From Nesterenkonia sp. E16_10 (GTDB lineage: Bacteria; Actinomycetota; Actinomycetes; Actinomycetales; Micrococcaceae): a stretch of DNA of 64,000 nt. A program made the translations under genes and the position numbers. The stretch lies in contig NZ_JADPSA010000013.1 in assembly GCF_017347085.1 (NCBI RefSeq), positions 1 through 64,000 on the forward strand. Reading direction: 5' to 3'. The notes under the pieces were generated by a model. That model was given only the letters and a program-made list of their open reading frames with translations. It was not told the DNA's origin and searched no databases. Shown here piece by piece: positions 51,857 through 57,896 of the stretch (its first letter is position 1; the number at the start of each line of letters is the position of its first letter).

Positions 51857-52519
51857 GTGAAGCCCATGGCCGCACCCTCGGTGAGTGACAGCGCGATCAC
51901 CGCCAGCCTGCTCTTCGCGATCGGGCTCGGGCGGACCCCCACGCCCGAGTCCCGCGCGCTTGCTGAAGAACTCCGCGACACCGTCACCCAGATGCTTCAG
52001 GACCAGGGCGCATCCGGGAGCATCTCCCAGGCCCTCGACGCCGTGCGTGCTGGTCGCGATGCGGTGACCAGCGACCCCTCGCTGAGCCTCTCCGCGGCGA
52101 GGTACCAGACGCTGCGCAGCGAGTTCCTCGCCGCACAGCCTGCTGCGCCTGGCCGGGGCCGAAACGTCTGGCCCGTAGGTGCCAGCACGATCCTCAAACG
52201 CGCCTCCGGCTCCTGGAGCGCGGCCCTGCAGAACGTGGGTCTGTCCGCCTCGAGCCGTGCCAGGCCCTCCGGCTTCGGGAGCGCACGGTTCACCGAGGAG
52301 CAGTTTCGGGCGGCGCTGCGCGACTTCACCGCCAACGGCGGGCAGGCCGGTTTCACCACCAGCTACCAGAGCTACGTGGACTGGCGGAAGCTCCAGCAGC
52401 AGCAAGGACGCAGCGATCTGCCCTCGGGCCCGAGCATCCGCAACACCTATGGCAGCTGGAGCGTCGCCCTGGAGCGGGATGGCGTGCAACCCGGCGGGGC
52501 CGAAGCACCGGAGAGCTGA
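51857..52519 (+). CDS. Protein with HNH-associated (homing-endonuclease-type) repeats
   Basis: A 220-residue protein without a recognised catalytic domain. Two copies of a short DNA-binding-like repeat are visible: GASTILKRASGSWSAALQNVGL (about 105-126) and GPSIRNTYGSWSVALERDGV (about 188-207), matching the GSWxxAL pattern of repeats that accompany HNH and homing endonucleases. Helices such as FTEEQFRAALRDFTANGG precede the second copy. No HNH or GIY-YIG nuclease motif is present. A DNA-binding role is therefore likely but unproven. Start GTG 51857 or ATG 51866. Confidence 0.75.
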   Translation: MKPMAAPSVSDSAITASLLFAIGLGRTPTPESRALAEELRDTVTQMLQDQGASGSISQALDAVRAGRDAVTSDPSLSLSAARYQTLRSEFLAAQPAAPGRGRNVWPVGASTILKRASGSWSAALQNVGLSASSRARPSGFGSARFTEEQFRAALRDFTANGGQAGFTTSYQSYVDWRKLQQQQGRSDLPSGPSIRNTYGSWSVALERDGVQPGGAEAPES

Positions 52520-52526
52520 CCCGGAG

Positions 52527-54131
52527 TCATCTCGCAGTCACCAGCAGCCGGCTCTCCGGCCCCGGCTCCAGCAGTCGCTGCGCCCGATCGTGATGGGCCT
52601 GCCGCTTCTCCTGGTCCATCTTCTCCAGCAGCGAGACCACCATCTTCGCGCGCGGGTTGGCCTCGAAGACCTCGCGATGATCCCGGATGAAGGTCCAGTA
52701 GAGCCCGTCCCACGCATCGGCCCAGTCGCCCGGCGGGAGATCGGACATCTTGCGCAGGTAGTTGCTGCCCGAGACGTAGGGCTTGGTGGTGATCGCCTCC
52801 CCGGCTGCGAACTGGCTCATCGCGTAGACGTTGGGGACCATCACCCAGTCGTAGGCGTCGATGAAGAGCTCCATGAACCACTCGTAGACCGCGTCGGGGT
52901 GGATCCGCAGCAGCGACATCGCGTTGCCCAGCACCATCAGGCGTTCAATGTGATGGGCATACCCGGTGGCCAGCACGCGGGAGATCACCAGGTCCACCGG
53001 GGCCAGGCCGGTGGACGCGTCCCACCAGCCCTCCCCCAGCGTGTTGCGGTGCTCGAGCCGATTGGCGCTGCGCAGCTGCCGGCCCCGGGTGCGGTAGGTC
53101 GCGCGCATGTACTCTCGCCAGCCGATGACCTGTCGGATGAATCCCTCCACCGAGGCCAGCGGCGTGGACTCCTCGGCAGCCTCCAGCACCGCATCCACCA
53201 CCTCACGGGGATCCAGCAATCCGATGTTCAGCGCCGGAGTCAGCAGCCCGTGGGCGATGAACGGGTGCTCGGCGGAGATCGCATCCTCGTAGGGGCCGAA
53301 GTCGTTCAGCCGCTGACTCACGAACTCGCGCAGATGTTCCCGGGCCTCCTGCGCGCTGGTGGGCCAGGCGAACAGTCCCGGATCTCCCGGGGCGTCCGGA
53401 AACTCCTCGCGCACCCAGGCGATGGCGCGCTCGACGTCGCCTCCGTCCTCCTCGACCGGGCTGTCCTGGGGTGCACCGTCCTCACCGGTGACCGCGTCCA
53501 GATCGAACATCGACTCACGCTGCAGGATCGGGTGCTGCGCGAAGCGCTCCACGCGGGGTGGGGTGTAGCCGCGCGGGAGCTTCTTGCGGTTCTCCGCGTC
53601 GAAGGACCACTTCCCGCCCACCGGTTCTCCCTCGGCGTCGAGCAGCAGCTTGAACCGGCGGCGCTGCCAGACGTAGAAGTCATGCATCCGGGCCGGGTGT
53701 GCGGCGAACCAGTCATCGACCTGCGCGCGACTGGTCAGGAAGTTCGGGGTCTCCAGCACGTCCTGGCTGCGCAGCCAGCAGCCGCCCTCCTCCAGGGCGG
53801 CGCGCAGATCCTGCTCCAGCCAGTCGTCGACCACGTCATAGACGCTCACCTGTTCCGGGGCCAGCTCCTGGATCAGTTCCACCAGCTGCGCGTGGGAGCT
53901 GCGCTCGGCATGGCTGCGCAGCACCTTCACCTGGTGACCACGGGCGCGCAGACGCCGCGCGAACCGGTCCATCGAGGCGCGGTGCAGCACCAGCTTCTGC
54001 GCGTGGAAACAGTACTGCCGGAACATCAGGTCATGTTCTATCAGCACGAACACCGTGTCAGGGTCGGCCTCGAGGTGTTCCTCGAAGAGCTGATGCGGCA
54101 GCACCAGTCGCAGGGCCGGGGAGCTCGTCAT
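52527..54131 (-). CDS. Cryptochrome/photolyase of the FeS-BCP type lacking cluster cysteines
   Basis: A 534-residue flavoprotein of the prokaryotic (6-4) photolyase/CryPro family. The N-terminal antenna domain (LRLVLPHQLFEEH, VFVLIEHDLMFRQY) and the C-terminal FAD domain (GFIRQVIGWREYMRATYR, TGYAHHIERLMVLGNAMSLLRI, FIDAYDWVMVPNVYAMSQFAAG, KPYVSGSNYLRKMSD) are all typical. However, known members bind a 4Fe-4S cluster with four cysteines in the C-terminal half, and here that half has no cysteine: the region after KMSD is shortened to LPPGDWADAWDGLYW. It therefore probably lacks the cluster. It ends the minus-strand cluster downstream of the amine-oxidase gene. Confidence 0.92.
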   Translation of the reverse strand: MTSSPALRLVLPHQLFEEHLEADPDTVFVLIEHDLMFRQYCFHAQKLVLHRASMDRFARRLRARGHQVKVLRSHAERSSHAQLVELIQELAPEQVSVYDVVDDWLEQDLRAALEEGGCWLRSQDVLETPNFLTSRAQVDDWFAAHPARMHDFYVWQRRRFKLLLDAEGEPVGGKWSFDAENRKKLPRGYTPPRVERFAQHPILQRESMFDLDAVTGEDGAPQDSPVEEDGGDVERAIAWVREEFPDAPGDPGLFAWPTSAQEAREHLREFVSQRLNDFGPYEDAISAEHPFIAHGLLTPALNIGLLDPREVVDAVLEAAEESTPLASVEGFIRQVIGWREYMRATYRTRGRQLRSANRLEHRNTLGEGWWDASTGLAPVDLVISRVLATGYAHHIERLMVLGNAMSLLRIHPDAVYEWFMELFIDAYDWVMVPNVYAMSQFAAGEAITTKPYVSGSNYLRKMSDLPPGDWADAWDGLYWTFIRDHREVFEANPRAKMVVSLLEKMDQEKRQAHHDRAQRLLEPGPESRLLVTAR

Positions 54132-54135
54132 GGGC

Positions 54136-55392
54136 TCAGCCGGCGAGCAGGCGGGTCACCGACTGCCCGGCCTGGTCCCCGGAGGTCAGCGCGCCCTGGA
54201 TCGAGCCGTGGTCACGGTGGTCCCCGGCGATGAGCACCCGCTCGCCCACGCGCTGCGGGCTGGCCTCGTGAAGCGGCGGGTGTTGCACCGGGAGCGTGTG
54301 CTCCACGATGTGATGGGTCAGCAGCTCCCAGTCTGCGGTGGAGCTCTGATAGAGCCGTTCCAGTTCCCGGCGCACGGCGGCCTCCTCGGCGAGCCCGTCG
54401 GGCCGGTCGAGCAGGGTCGTGGCCTGGATCAGGTGCTGACCCTCCGGCGCGTAGGAGGGGGCGGCCTGGGAGATCACCGCGGTGTTCCAGATCGGACCGG
54501 CGGGGCCTCCGCCGCGCCGGGTGGCGTCGAGCATCAGGAACGGTCCGGCCTGGGGAAGCTCCGGGGCGCGGAACCACCAGGTGGTCAGGCCGTGGGTGGG
54601 CAGGGCCGGCTGATCGGTGAGCTCGGGAAGGTCCTGGGGGCCCACGGCCAGGACGGCGGCGCGTGCTCGCAGCGTCCCGGTATCGGTGCTGACCTGGACG
54701 CCGTCGGCGGTGTGCCGCAGGTCCCGGGCCGGCATGTTCAGCTGCACCGGCTCCAGCAGCCAGCTGGCCAGCTGTTCCGGAAGCGCCTGCATGCCCTCGC
54801 GCGGCAGGCCGGGGGCGCCGAGGGCGAACCAGCGGACCAGCAGCCGGACGTAGTTCGCCGAGCTCTGCCCGGTGCTGTCGGCCAGGACCCCGGCCAGAAA
54901 CGTGTCGAGCACGTCCCGGCGCAGCCGTCCGGTGAGCCCGGCGGCCTCAAAGGACTCGTGCAGCGTCGCGTCCTGCGCCGGACGCGGACCGGTGGCAGGC
55001 TGTCGCAGGGTCGGGGCGAGCCAGCGGGCGAAGGCGAGCAGATCCGAGACCGGGGTGTGGCTGCTGCCCAGGGTGGCCAGGGCGTGCTGCGGGTGCCGCA
55101 GCGGATGCGCCAGCGTGGTGGTCTTCGTGGCGGTCCGGATCACCGCCCCCACACCGAACTGCTGCAGGCCGAGCGCGTCGACGTCGATCCAGTCCCGCAC
55201 CGCCGGATAGGCCGGGTTCAGCACCTGGAATCCTCGGTCGCAGCGGAAGCCGTCGATCAGGTCGGTGCGCACCCGTCCGCCCACGGCGTCTGAGGCTTCG
55301 AGCACGGTCACTCGGTGTCCGTTGCGCTGCAGCCGCCGGGCGCACTGCAGTCCGGCGAGTCCTGCGCCGATGACTATGACGTCGGTGTCCAT
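54136..55392 (-). CDS. FAD-dependent amine oxidase/desaturase-like protein
   Basis: A 418-residue flavoprotein: the FAD-binding VIVIGAGLAGLQCARRLQRNG (about 5-25) and VTVLEASDAVGGRVRTD (about 28-44), and the C-terminal AGDHRDHGSIQGALTSGDQAG that closes the FAD site. This is the protoporphyrinogen-oxidase/phytoene-desaturase superfamily; the actual substrate is unknown. It starts only 4 bases upstream of the photolyase gene in transcription order, suggesting a shared role, perhaps in light-related pigment chemistry. It overlaps the membrane-protein gene upstream by 19 bases. Confidence 0.85.
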   Translation of the reverse strand: MDTDVIVIGAGLAGLQCARRLQRNGHRVTVLEASDAVGGRVRTDLIDGFRCDRGFQVLNPAYPAVRDWIDVDALGLQQFGVGAVIRTATKTTTLAHPLRHPQHALATLGSSHTPVSDLLAFARWLAPTLRQPATGPRPAQDATLHESFEAAGLTGRLRRDVLDTFLAGVLADSTGQSSANYVRLLVRWFALGAPGLPREGMQALPEQLASWLLEPVQLNMPARDLRHTADGVQVSTDTGTLRARAAVLAVGPQDLPELTDQPALPTHGLTTWWFRAPELPQAGPFLMLDATRRGGGPAGPIWNTAVISQAAPSYAPEGQHLIQATTLLDRPDGLAEEAAVRRELERLYQSSTADWELLTHHIVEHTLPVQHPPLHEASPQRVGERVLIAGDHRDHGSIQGALTSGDQAGQSVTRLLAG

Positions 55393-56033
55393 GAGTCTCC
55401 ATCCTGTGGCCTGGAGGTCAGTCTAGGCGGAGCGTCTGACACGGACCGGCCGCGGCGGGCAGCCCGATCGGAGCGCAGGTGCAGCACCACGACGACGCCG
55501 ACCGCCACCGATCCGATCCCACCGGCGGCCATATCCCCGATGGTGTCGGTGTAGGTCACGGAGATGTCCGGGGTGATGAAGATGAAGCCGAGCCACTCCA
55601 CCATCTCCCACACCGCACTCAGCGCCAGGCCGAGCGTGGCGGTGAGCAGGACACCGACCGTGGCGGCGAGCGGGCTGGCCCGCGGGTCCGCCACCACCTG
55701 AGAGCGCAGCAACACGACGTAGAGCCCGGCGGCCAGCACCGCGGTGCAGAAGAAGTGCACCAGCAGGTCCCAGTTCGGGATGCGCGTGTAGAGGTCGAAG
55801 ACGTTGCTCCAGGCCGCGATCAGAAGGATCACCGAGACGGCGAGGTCTGCCGCCGCCGGGAAGCCCAGGAAGCGTGGCGCGAAGAGTCCCGGCAGAGCGA
55901 AGGCGAGGATCCCGGCGTCGGTCGGCTCGAAGAACACCGCGGCCAGCACCACGCCCAGGACGCCGAGGCCGCGCAGAATATCGGCGGCGTACTCGGCGGG
56001 GCTCCGCGGAGCACGCAGGAAGTTCTCGATCAT
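55374..56033 (-). CDS. Six-helix membrane protein of unknown function (DUF2238-like)
   Basis: A 219-residue integral membrane protein with about six hydrophobic segments beginning ILRGLGVLGVVLAAVFFEP. The segment IPNWDLLVHFFCTAVLAAGLY (a conserved polar DLLVHF inside the membrane) and WEMVEWLGFIFITPDIS resemble DUF2238/YjdF-type proteins. No function is known. The ATG at 56033 overlaps the upstream nuclease stop by ATGA, which fixes the start despite a long open frame upstream. Confidence 0.78.
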   Translation of the reverse strand: MIENFLRAPRSPAEYAADILRGLGVLGVVLAAVFFEPTDAGILAFALPGLFAPRFLGFPAAADLAVSVILLIAAWSNVFDLYTRIPNWDLLVHFFCTAVLAAGLYVVLLRSQVVADPRASPLAATVGVLLTATLGLALSAVWEMVEWLGFIFITPDISVTYTDTIGDMAAGGIGSVAVGVVVVLHLRSDRAARRGRSVSDAPPRLTSRPQDGDSWTPTS

Positions 56034-56941
56034 CCGGCGTCGCCCTCCTGCGGAAGGTGCAGCACGGCGTGGACCGGCAGGTGATCCGAGGGCCATCCGC
56101 CGTGGTGCCGCGCGGGGTTGATCGCCGCGCGGGCCACGTCCACCTCGGGTGAGGCCATGATCCAGTCGATCCGGGGCCGGCCCACGCGCGGGGTCCGGTA
56201 GTCGGCGAAGGTCCCCCATTCCTGGCTGTCCCTCTGCGCGGCGGCCGCCCAGGTGTCGGCGAGGCCACCGTCCTGCAGCAGCCTCTTCACCGGCGCGCTG
56301 CCCGGGCGAGCGTTGAGATCGGCCAGGAACACCGCCGGCAGCGGGCTGTCGGTCACCAGGTCCCGGATGCTCTGGGCGGCACGCAGACGGGAGCGGTGCG
56401 AGAGGTGGTCCAGGTGGGTGTTCAGGGCGCGGAAGGTCCTGGAGGTCATCCGGTCGTGGAAGGTCGCTGCGACCAGGCTTCGCGGGATGAGGTTGCCCCA
56501 GGAGCGGGAGCCGGGGTGGTGTGGGGTGTCCGAGAGTGCGCGCTGTTCCCAGTCGATGAGCTCGAGGCGGTCTGCGTCGTAGTAGATCGGCGAGGCCTCA
56601 CCCGTGGCGCGCCGACCTCGTCCGTGCCCGACATGCGCATAGGCGCCGCCCAGTGCCTCGGCGACGAATCTGGCCTGATCCGGCAGGGCTTCCTGGACGC
56701 CGAGCAACGTCGGGCGTTCGGCCTGCAGCAGGCTGCGCAGCCCGGGGGCGCGACGCTGCCAGCGGTCGGCCCGGCGCGGAGTCAGCGCGAAGGTCCGACG
56801 CCGGATGTTCCAGCTCATCACGTGGAGCCCGGGGGCCGGGACGGGGCCGATCAGCGCGGCACCCGCAGCGGCGGAGCGTTCGCCGGTGGAGGACTCGGGC
56901 CCCACGGAGCGGGTCTCCGCGGGCCGGTCTGGGGTCATCAT
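56030..56941 (-). CDS. Endonuclease/exonuclease/phosphatase family hydrolase
   Basis: A 303-residue metal-dependent hydrolase of the EEP fold. The motifs are HVMSWNIRRR (first Asn about residue 45), LLGVQEALPDQ (metal-binding Glu), ALNTHLDHLS (catalytic His), VFLADLNARPGS (Asp-x-Asn) and the C-terminal WPSDHLPVHAVLHL (Asp-His). Substrates in this family range from DNA to phosphoinositides and cannot be fixed. It overlaps the GT2 gene upstream and the membrane-protein gene downstream by ATGA. Confidence 0.9.
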   Translation of the reverse strand: MMTPDRPAETRSVGPESSTGERSAAAGAALIGPVPAPGLHVMSWNIRRRTFALTPRRADRWQRRAPGLRSLLQAERPTLLGVQEALPDQARFVAEALGGAYAHVGHGRGRRATGEASPIYYDADRLELIDWEQRALSDTPHHPGSRSWGNLIPRSLVAATFHDRMTSRTFRALNTHLDHLSHRSRLRAAQSIRDLVTDSPLPAVFLADLNARPGSAPVKRLLQDGGLADTWAAAAQRDSQEWGTFADYRTPRVGRPRIDWIMASPEVDVARAAINPARHHGGWPSDHLPVHAVLHLPQEGDAG

Positions 56942-57738
56942 GGGCGCTCACCTCCCGGTGCTGTGAACTGACCGCGGCGGCGCAGCGAGGCTCGACGCCA
57001 CCGGAAGGGTGGGAACTCCTGGGGCCAGTGCACCGTCACGGACCGGAATCCGCGCTTGATCCGGCGTCGAAAGGCTCTGGCGTCCTTGAACGGGCGCATC
57101 GAGATGCCCATCGGTTCGCCGCCCATCTGACCGAGCCGGTGACGCTCCCCGAGGTGGAAGGACAGGTCCAGATCGTCGTGGATCTCGGGGTCGTCGCGGT
57201 GCACCTGGAGGCGCACCTGTTCCCAGGCTTCGCGGCGCATGGCCAGGTTGGACCCGAAGAGCGGGCGGTGCCCCAGCGCAGGGATGGAGAAGTTCATATA
57301 GGCGAAGAGGTAGGCGCGCACCAGGGGACGTCGCAGCGGCACCGGTCCGTCGATGAACACGGCCGGTCCGGTCAGCGCCGCAACATCGGGATGCTCCTCG
57401 AAGGCGGTGATCACGTCCTGGATCCATCGAGGTCCTGGAACGCAGTCCGCGTCCAGCCGCAGGATCAGGTCCCCGGTGGCGGCGTCGTAGCCGGTGGCGC
57501 TCGCCGCAGGGATGCCGGGCTGCAGGCAGCTCACCACGATGGCGCCGGCGGCTCTCCCGGCAGCGGCAGAGTCATCGGCGGAGGCGTTGTCGACCACGAT
57601 GATCTCCTCGGCGGTCCGGGTCTGCGCCGCCAGTGCCGCGAGGCAGACGGTGAGCTCCGCGCTGTCGTCCTTGACCGGGATGACCACCGAGACGGTCACC
57701 GGCCCGTCATGTTCTGCAGCCATCGCCACCTGTCTCAT
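56938..57738 (-). CDS. Glycosyltransferase family 2
   Basis: Cytoplasmic GT-A transferase, 266 residues. Features are VSVVIPVKDDSAELTVCL (about 14-31), the first metal/nucleotide region VVDNASADDS, the DXD-like LILRLDADCVPGPRW (Asp about 103), and MNFSIPALGHRPLFGSNLAMRREAW, typical of chain-extending GT2 proteins. No membrane segments, so it may add sugars to a lipid or carotenoid-like acceptor. Start ATG 57738 is preferred over 57723; upstream in-frame sequence lacks coding character. It heads the minus-strand unit that ends in the photolyase gene. Confidence 0.85.
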   Translation of the reverse strand: MRQVAMAAEHDGPVTVSVVIPVKDDSAELTVCLAALAAQTRTAEEIIVVDNASADDSAAAGRAAGAIVVSCLQPGIPAASATGYDAATGDLILRLDADCVPGPRWIQDVITAFEEHPDVAALTGPAVFIDGPVPLRRPLVRAYLFAYMNFSIPALGHRPLFGSNLAMRREAWEQVRLQVHRDDPEIHDDLDLSFHLGERHRLGQMGGEPMGISMRPFKDARAFRRRIKRGFRSVTVHWPQEFPPFRWRRASLRRRGQFTAPGGERP

Positions 57739-57896
57739 GAAGTCGGTCCATTGCACGCTTGCGCTGATGACCAAATCTACGCCGTCAGAGTTCAGGGTGC
57801 GCGACGCCGGGGGCGATCTGCGCTGGATAGGATGCTCTTGAACCGCCGCTGCTCCCCGGAGCATCGACCTCCCTGCGCTGATGACGAGGTTCCCTG

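Follow-up and report, generated by a model that had tools for sequence, protein, structure and literature searches.

Adjoining an amine-oxidase-like gene in Nesterenkonia sp. E16_10 is a gene whose product is probably an active DNA photolyase. The protein belongs to the prokaryotic (6-4) photolyase family, within a branch that is free of the [4Fe-4S] cluster. Sequence comparison and a predicted structure support this reading through a fold of the PhrB type, the disappearance of all four cluster ligands and the preservation of the residues that line the lesion site. The most likely substrate, to judge from these residues, is the (6-4) lesion, with the CPD lesion ranked second. The protein represents a real but already described type, and its branch, as far as its sequence features indicate, matches the one named subgroup M, to which 20 of 110 sequences were assigned (PMC9178010). 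The point of moderate interest, and one that can be tested, is the means by which the branch dispenses with the cluster; otherwise the gene is an ordinary member of its branch.

A photolyase gene with missing cluster ligands

The open reading frame at 52527..54131 on the minus strand of the window (the whole stretch of 64,000 nucleotides that was analyzed, with a GC content of 69%, from a host genome of 3.3 Mb) was assigned as a cluster-free PhrB-type photolyase gene on the basis of its frame, Pfam matches, alignment, structural model and fold match. It begins with ATG, finishes with a stop codon, has no internal stops and encodes 534 amino acids. Its product comprises an N-terminal DPRP domain at residues ~8-204 (PF04244; 171.3 bits, 3.6e-50, above the cut-off) and an FAD-binding domain at residues ~240-520 (FAD_binding_7, PF03441; 31.2-33.1 bits, above the cut-off). 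Between them is a variable acidic linker formed by residues 206-228 (53448..53516, minus strand). Both motifs that the first-pass annotation of this DNA had reported for the FAD domain, YAHHIERLMV and VMVPNVYAMSQFAAG, are found in the translated protein. Comparison with five copies from the same genus yields dN/dS values of 0.14-0.26, and thus the gene is under purifying selection. The photolyase has no match in PADLOC, where its neighbor weakly matches a desaturase model, and none by tblastn among the INPHARED phages. A scan of the locus for promoters and terminators returned none above shuffled sequences, the scan covering some of the promoter types of this high-GC host.

The same annotation had proposed that the C-terminal half contains no cysteine, that the CxxC-containing insert is shortened relative to PhrB, and that the protein therefore appears cluster-free, and each of these points is upheld by our analysis. 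The only cysteines in the protein are residues 41 and 118, leaving none after residue 118. Alignment with PhrB, as the annotation had suggested (PhrB numbering is counted off the alignment to chain 5kcm_A, the PhrB mutant I51W), reveals that all four PhrB ligands are absent. The place of ligand C350 is taken by P378 (codon at 52998..53000, minus strand), a position that is proline in 137 of 137 cluster-free rows of our alignment and cysteine in 39 of 39 rows of the FeS type. The stretch C438-x-x-C441 is deleted, and C454 corresponds to D472 when residues are counted back from a common L-Y-W. The ligand loop that remains (residues 462-479; 52695..52748, minus strand) contains neither Cys nor His and spans 18 residues from M462 to W479, compared to 28 in PhrB, and its W470, W474 and D475 are invariant in the cluster-free rows. 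This span is 18 residues long in 133 of the 137 cluster-free rows and 20-24 in the other four, versus 28 residues in 38 of the 39 FeS rows and 29 in the last. The four cysteines for a [4Fe-4S] cluster, by which an FeS-BCP is recognized, are represented in the window protein by none of four, and the lack of all four is the hallmark of subgroup M. The window protein is thus very probably cluster-free.

Structure prediction, also proposed in the first-pass annotation, produced a PhrB-type model (AlphaFold; mean pLDDT 89, pTM 0.91) from an input of 43 rows, consisting of the window protein and 42 of 80 homologous loci from named species genomes. In this model, P378 is located near the start of a helix formed by residues 377-389, and W470 and W474 lie together on a confidently predicted helix formed by residues 469-484, where the blocks average 91 and 97. 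Confidence is low for residues 171-180 (mean pLDDT 59), residues 441-450 (53) and the linker at 206-228 (below 50), and the first two of these stretches contain or border D178 and the side that faces the lesion. The ten best fold matches reported by VIA are all of the PhrB type, with Z scores of 39.4-41.7, before the score drops to 26.4, and the order given by Foldseek agrees; no family was excluded on the basis of VIA alignment rows that rank lower than these ten. Sequence searches of solved structures recovered eight distinct relatives, all of the PhrB type, and a profile search recovered the same eight plus three distant photolyases. No cluster-free member is evident among these sequence-found structures, of which four chains show the cysteines and the others were judged by their titles or names.

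Extent and origin of the cluster-free branch

The loss of the cluster, which had at first been treated as a peculiarity of one protein, is instead the fixed state of a large and published branch (subgroup M; PMC9178010). Matches were found in 36 of the 245 genomes searched from the same family, comprising 28 PhrB-like loci and eight weak matches (E 1e-5 to 6e-4) that we have taken as canonical photolyases. The 28 PhrB-like loci are the window itself, 25 readable homologs (L002-L026) and two that are broken or partial. These last two (L027 in genome G014 and L028 in genome G189) are broken gene copies, in which the match is incomplete or is split into fragments that lie in different frames. All four ligands are absent from 25 of 25 readable family homologs. 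In a wider sample of the phylum, 54 of 396 genomes, including that of the window, carry a match; among the 29 best of the other phylum matches, 28 retain the ligands, the exception being L031, a locus from a different family in the same class, which likewise lacks all four. Sampled actinobacterial members outside the lineage of the window are therefore mainly of the FeS type.

Both kinds are present among Cyanobacteria, where 159 of 194 genomes searched have a match: the best 30 loci gave 29 full-length rows, all cluster-free, and six weaker loci are of the FeS type. Several of the cluster-free cyanobacterial loci (L163, L164, L166-L170 and L172) come from genomes of 1.6-1.9 Mb with ~28% GC at the locus, which fits a resemblance to Prochlorococcus, the source of the subgroup M protein PromaPL. 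We also scanned named species genomes with an alignment of cluster-free proteins and the patterns YDWVMVP and RQ[VL]IGWRE, and confirmed the best 80 of 589 loci. All 80 are cluster-free, but the patterns were derived from cluster-free proteins, and hence these counts are no measure of how frequent the branch is. According to record titles, many of which denote metagenome bins, the best 80 of 589 span at least eight phyla and include Actinomycetota, Planctomycetota, Verrucomicrobiota, Bacteroidota, Balneolota, Ignavibacteriota, Acidobacteriota, Pseudomonadota, Cyanobacteria and others. An uncultivated viral contig of 83 kb (IMGVR_UViG_3300016474_001053) also carries a cluster-free relative with 37% identity (L196:2827-4410), in which P378, D380, W470 and W474 are retained, whereas position 475 is N and the equivalent of W418 is I.

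When 176 rows are aligned, 137 lack the ligands, 39 possess all of them, and there are no intermediates. Of the 39 FeS rows, 26 are actinobacterial and eight cyanobacterial, with four from Pseudomonadota and one archaeal, and the absence of intermediates therefore holds only among the 176 rows compared. The 137 cluster-free rows represent ~134 distinct genes, since three pairs were fetched twice: L122/L142 (a genome with one matching gene), and L019/L073 and L022/L078, each with 100% DNA identity (L019 shares its DNA sequence with the record of Tersicoccus sp. Bi-70, a member of Micrococcaceae, and L022 with that of Arthrobacter sp. B1805). The row counts omit the window protein (L001), the broken or partial loci L027, L028 and L050, the products shorter than 400 amino acids (L162 and L052) and L143, the other part of L142.

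A tree of 98 rows, built with the trait columns removed, separates the cluster-free from the FeS sequences by one branch with an SH-aLRT support of 100. The window protein groups with all 59 cluster-free rows of this tree, four of which derive from cyanobacterial genomes of 1.6-1.9 Mb with ~28% GC at the locus, and it resides in a subclade in which 25 of the 26 rows are actinobacterial and the remaining one bears the label Vibrio cholerae. In a rooted tree of 220 columns, the cluster-free rows form one clade and the FeS rows a stem group, although the outgroup (L029 and L030, taken as canonical photolyases from their weak match and motifs) is distant and one of its two members is a long branch. 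A cluster-free clade inside an FeS stem group suggests that the cluster was likely lost once, anciently, and that the loss is derived. An independent, recent loss within the genus can be ruled out, as the readable family sample and all 80 named loci share the state, which requires one change in the tree.

Two records deserve comment for their labels. The locus labelled Vibrio cholerae strain 35D (L077; WNZI01000022.1) sits among Arthrobacter-type sequences in the tree, so that mislabelling or contamination of the record or contig is probable. A contig labelled as a Microbacteriaceae MAG (L108; CAKZKU010000207.1) has ligand-site stretches like those of the verrucomicrobial loci L099 and L104, and may be misbinned.

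Repair residues, a proposed cluster replacement and the likely function

Residues needed for repair or for lesion binding in PhrB, namely His366, Tyr424 and Tyr430 (PMC4619345), correspond to H394, Y452 and Y458, and the PhrB residues Trp342 and Trp390 correspond to W370 and W418. All are present in the window protein, which retains both electron-carrying tryptophans. The codons for H393 and H394 lie at 52950..52955 on the minus strand and align with PhrB H365 and H366, the second of which is essential for (6-4) repair. A putative magnesium site is formed by D178 (codon at 53598..53600, minus strand), the equivalent of PhrB D179, and by D283 (codon at 53283..53285, minus strand), the equivalent of PhrB D254. 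We take D179 and D254 to be the two magnesium-site aspartates of PhrB, with D178 and D253 of the Caulobacter enzyme in support. These two residues of the Caulobacter enzyme are predicted to bind Mg2+ (PMC12082625). The equivalents of D178 and D283 are invariant in all 176 rows, and H393, H394, R397, L398, D178, D283, W418, M431, Y452 and Y458 show no variation across the 137 cluster-free rows. The place of W370 is more permissive, with W in 76 of these rows, Y in 59 and other residues in two.

At the site of the former cluster, P378, D380, W470, W474 and D475 are new and are found in all 137 cluster-free rows; the FeS rows have, at the same places, C, mixed residues, mixed residues, F/Y/L and T/N, respectively. 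From sequence and model we infer that W470 and W474, together with the helix caps, may take over the structural role of the cluster. We tentatively propose, as a serious possibility that could well prove mistaken, that a single ancient event exchanged the cluster for an organic lock composed of the ten-residue loop deletion, the Pro-x-Asp element and the Trp-(3)-Trp-Asp element. If this reading is true, then the branch constitutes a natural experiment, in which the cluster proves to be structural and not needed for repair. What the [4Fe-4S] cluster does in prokaryotic (6-4) photolyases was still called elusive in 2025 (PMC12082625), and PhrB variants with mutated cluster cysteines are insoluble or not expressed (PMC4619345), which indicates that loss of the cluster is not trivially tolerated. 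An entire cluster-free branch with an invariant replacement motif offers a direct route to asking what the cluster is for. We found no description of the Pro-Asp/Trp-Trp-Asp replacement in the parts of the literature that we covered, and we claim no priority.

We envision a mechanism in which the photolyase would bind FAD, blue light would excite FADH-, and an electron would pass from the excited cofactor to the UV lesion, for which a (6-4) photoproduct is the likeliest candidate; H394 would serve as the proton donor, and Mg2+ would be bound near D178 and D283. The roof that is tied by the [4Fe-4S] cluster in PhrB would be held instead by the shortened loop, the helix start at Pro378-x-Asp380 and the paired W470 and W474, such that the cluster would become dispensable. 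CPD lesions would be covered by a class III-like enzyme of the same host, as by PhrA beside PhrB in Agrobacterium.

This second enzyme (L060; G000:C29:135432-135896) is the one other FAD_binding_7 protein in the host genome, and it scores 229.6 bits with PF03441 compared to 33.1 for the window protein. Among solved structures this second enzyme is closest to 4u63 (421.6 bits), by title the class III photolyase of Agrobacterium, with class I chains next (279.6), and thus it appears nearer to class III than to class I, an assignment made in the genome of the window alone. Within the family sample, a strong second FAD_binding_7 match is present in 28 of 28 carriers of the PhrB-like gene versus 140 of 217 non-carriers (Fisher 1.6e-5, uncorrected for kinship), and within the genus in seven of seven carriers versus four of nine non-carriers. 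The presence of a canonical photolyase beside the cluster-free one in every carrier of this sample indicates that the cluster-free enzyme is an addition, which fits a role in (6-4) repair; the idea that it replaces the usual photolyase is unsupported. In the antenna pocket, which in prokaryotic (6-4) photolyases accommodates DMRL or 8-HDF, P12 and H13 (codons at 54093..54098, minus strand) stand in place of the conserved Gly9-Asp10 of PhrB, and four of the six sites that PMC9178010 calls most conserved are retained (L11, E32, K46 and M54). The host genome, which is 98.75% complete, contains lumazine synthase RibH, and a search of it for the FO synthase subunit CofH gave no match. Production of an 8-HDF antenna by the host itself is for that reason unlikely, which leaves room for uptake.

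Between 57864 and 52527, five minus-strand genes follow one another head to tail, either overlapping or with a gap of 4 bases, and form an apparent operon of which the photolyase gene is the last. The run begins with a family 2 glycosyltransferase (56938..57864) and continues in the same direction with an endonuclease/exonuclease/phosphatase family protein (56030..56941) and a predicted membrane protein of the DUF2238 type (55374..56033). The gene for the latter overlaps that of a flavin-containing amine-oxidase-like protein (PF01593; 54136..55392), which ends 4 bases upstream of the photolyase gene. The order of the five genes is kept in four of five loci from the same genus (L188-L191), and the fifth (L192) retains the oxidase pair only; none of the neighbors was found in three loci from other genera (L193-L195). 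On the plus strand, a gene convergent to that of the photolyase (51857..52519) has a weak match, below the cut-off, to the homing-endonuclease-associated HNH_repeat, and it is retained beside the photolyase in L002-L005 and L013.

A related oxidase is encoded close to the photolyase gene in three of the best 80 of 589 named loci (those of Pseudoclavibacter, Phycicoccus and a planctomycete), and the flanks contain a flavin reductase in 11 and a short-chain dehydrogenase in 11. A short photolyase-like gene that encodes the FAD-binding domain only occurs in the flanks of 15, mostly from Bacteroidota (for example L090:9457-10623, and others in L092, L096, L100 and L103). These flanks extend at most 6 kb and are often cut by contig ends, and one example of each neighbor type was checked by Pfam. 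The neighbors fit photoreactivation and flavin chemistry better than signalling, although most named loci are without them.

The first-pass annotation had questioned whether the protein still repairs (6-4) photoproducts or works as a light sensor. Its doubt about repair is weakened by the invariance of the equivalents of His366, Tyr424 and Tyr430, and the sensor role is not supported. The light-dependent protection conferred by Synechococcus phr2 (PMC9426592) is further evidence that a PhrB-like protein ascribed to the cluster-free type can be active. The histidine is informative since His366 is listed as a feature that FeS-BCPs share only with eukaryotic (6-4) enzymes and animal cryptochromes (PMC4619345). 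Published views on the substrate of the cluster-free branch are split, with PromaPL counted as a (6-4) photolyase without cluster in PMC9178010, which cites a 2019 FEBS J paper, and the cluster-free Phr2 of marine Synechococcus RS9916 predicted to be a CPD photolyase because the cluster is missing (PMC9426592). In the latter report, loss of phr2 cuts survival of UV-B ~1,000-fold, and phr2 protects a phr-deleted lexA3 strain of E. coli after UV-B nearly tenfold in a light-dependent manner, a strong phenotype and rescue that would agree with repair of CPD, alone or besides (6-4) lesions, following a change of substrate when the cluster was lost. We consider such a change unlikely, since the published prediction rests mainly on the missing cluster, the equivalent of His366 is retained in 137 of 137 cluster-free rows, and all 28 family carriers already possess another canonical photolyase, which is class III-like in the genome of the window. 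The window protein falls far below curated cut-offs for class I CPD photolyases (TIGR03556, 23.3 of 884.6 bits; PRK10674, 17.2 of 506), which are strict enough that the canonical photolyase of the same genome is also below them (339.8 and 308.7). A light-sensing cryptochrome that has lost DNA repair finds a parallel in CryB of Rhodobacter, a PhrB-type relative that regulates gene expression (PMC9178010), but CryB itself has the cluster. Given that the residues for lesion binding and repair do not vary among the cluster-free rows, that a scan of seven neighbors of the window photolyase turned up no regulator family, that the model has no long C-terminal extension, and that a short photolyase-like gene lies within 6 kb in 15 of the best 80 of 589 named loci, we regard a sensor as very unlikely.

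Other explanations concern the cluster itself. Many relatives keep a single cysteine adjoining W470, which might hint at a cluster retained with the help of other ligands or a partner protein. This is scarcely credible for the window protein, which differs from those relatives in having no cysteine past residue 118 and neither Cys nor His in its loop at 462-479, and a single cysteine is insufficient to hold a cluster alone. The annotation had also named a frameshift or misread in the assembly, whose correction would restore the cysteines, as a circumstance that would undo its claim. None was detected: the same state recurs in 25 of 25 readable family homologs from separate genomes, the frame is intact and dN/dS is low, and on this evidence an artefact that hides the cysteines is ruled out for practical purposes. 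A functional photolyase of the cluster-free branch, acting most likely on (6-4) lesions, thus remains the reading that we prefer.

Relation to known photolyases

The window protein shares with PromaPL of Prochlorococcus marinus, the representative of subgroup M, the absence of the cluster ligands (PMC9178010). It likewise has Met at the place of PhrB E403, and the electron-chain residues Tyr391 and Tyr395 of PhrB are replaced by Phe in 137 of 137 and 120 of 137 cluster-free rows, respectively. One branch unites it with sequences from small, low-GC cyanobacterial genomes that resemble those of Prochlorococcus; it differs from subgroup M as described in that it comes from Micrococcaceae. As early as 2015, 7% of 464 family members were noted to be without the cluster cysteines, and these members were described as lacking the tyrosine equivalent to PhrB Y460 (PMC4619345). 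The window protein, by contrast, has this residue (Tyr478), and the corresponding place is Y in 79 and F in 58 of the 137 cluster-free rows. The passage of PMC9498864 that was consulted for such enzymes of Hymenobacter or Arthrobacter makes no mention of cluster-free forms.

With the FeS-BCPs, which include PhrB of Agrobacterium, CryB of Rhodobacter, SePhrB, VcFeS-BCP and the Caulobacter (6-4) photolyase, the window protein has in common its fold, domain order and lesion-site residues. In contrast to it, these proteins have four cluster ligands and ten additional loop residues, in place of which we find P378, D380, W470, W474 and D475.

Synechococcus RS9916 presumably belongs to Synechococcus subcluster 5.1. 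A PhrB-like type without the four cysteines is reported from this subcluster, and Phr2 of RS9916, which is PhrB-like and confers light-dependent protection, is likened here to the window protein by its description rather than by alignment (PMC9426592). Its authors predict CPD repair, whereas we read the window protein as a (6-4) enzyme in the first place.

The second photolyase of the host belongs to the same FAD_binding_7 superfamily as the window protein, but it is canonical and class III-like. In Agrobacterium, we take PhrA to be the class III enzyme and PhrB that of the other type. The host of the window likewise seems to pair a class III photolyase with one of the PhrB type, a combination comparable to PhrA plus PhrB in Agrobacterium (PMC3204975).
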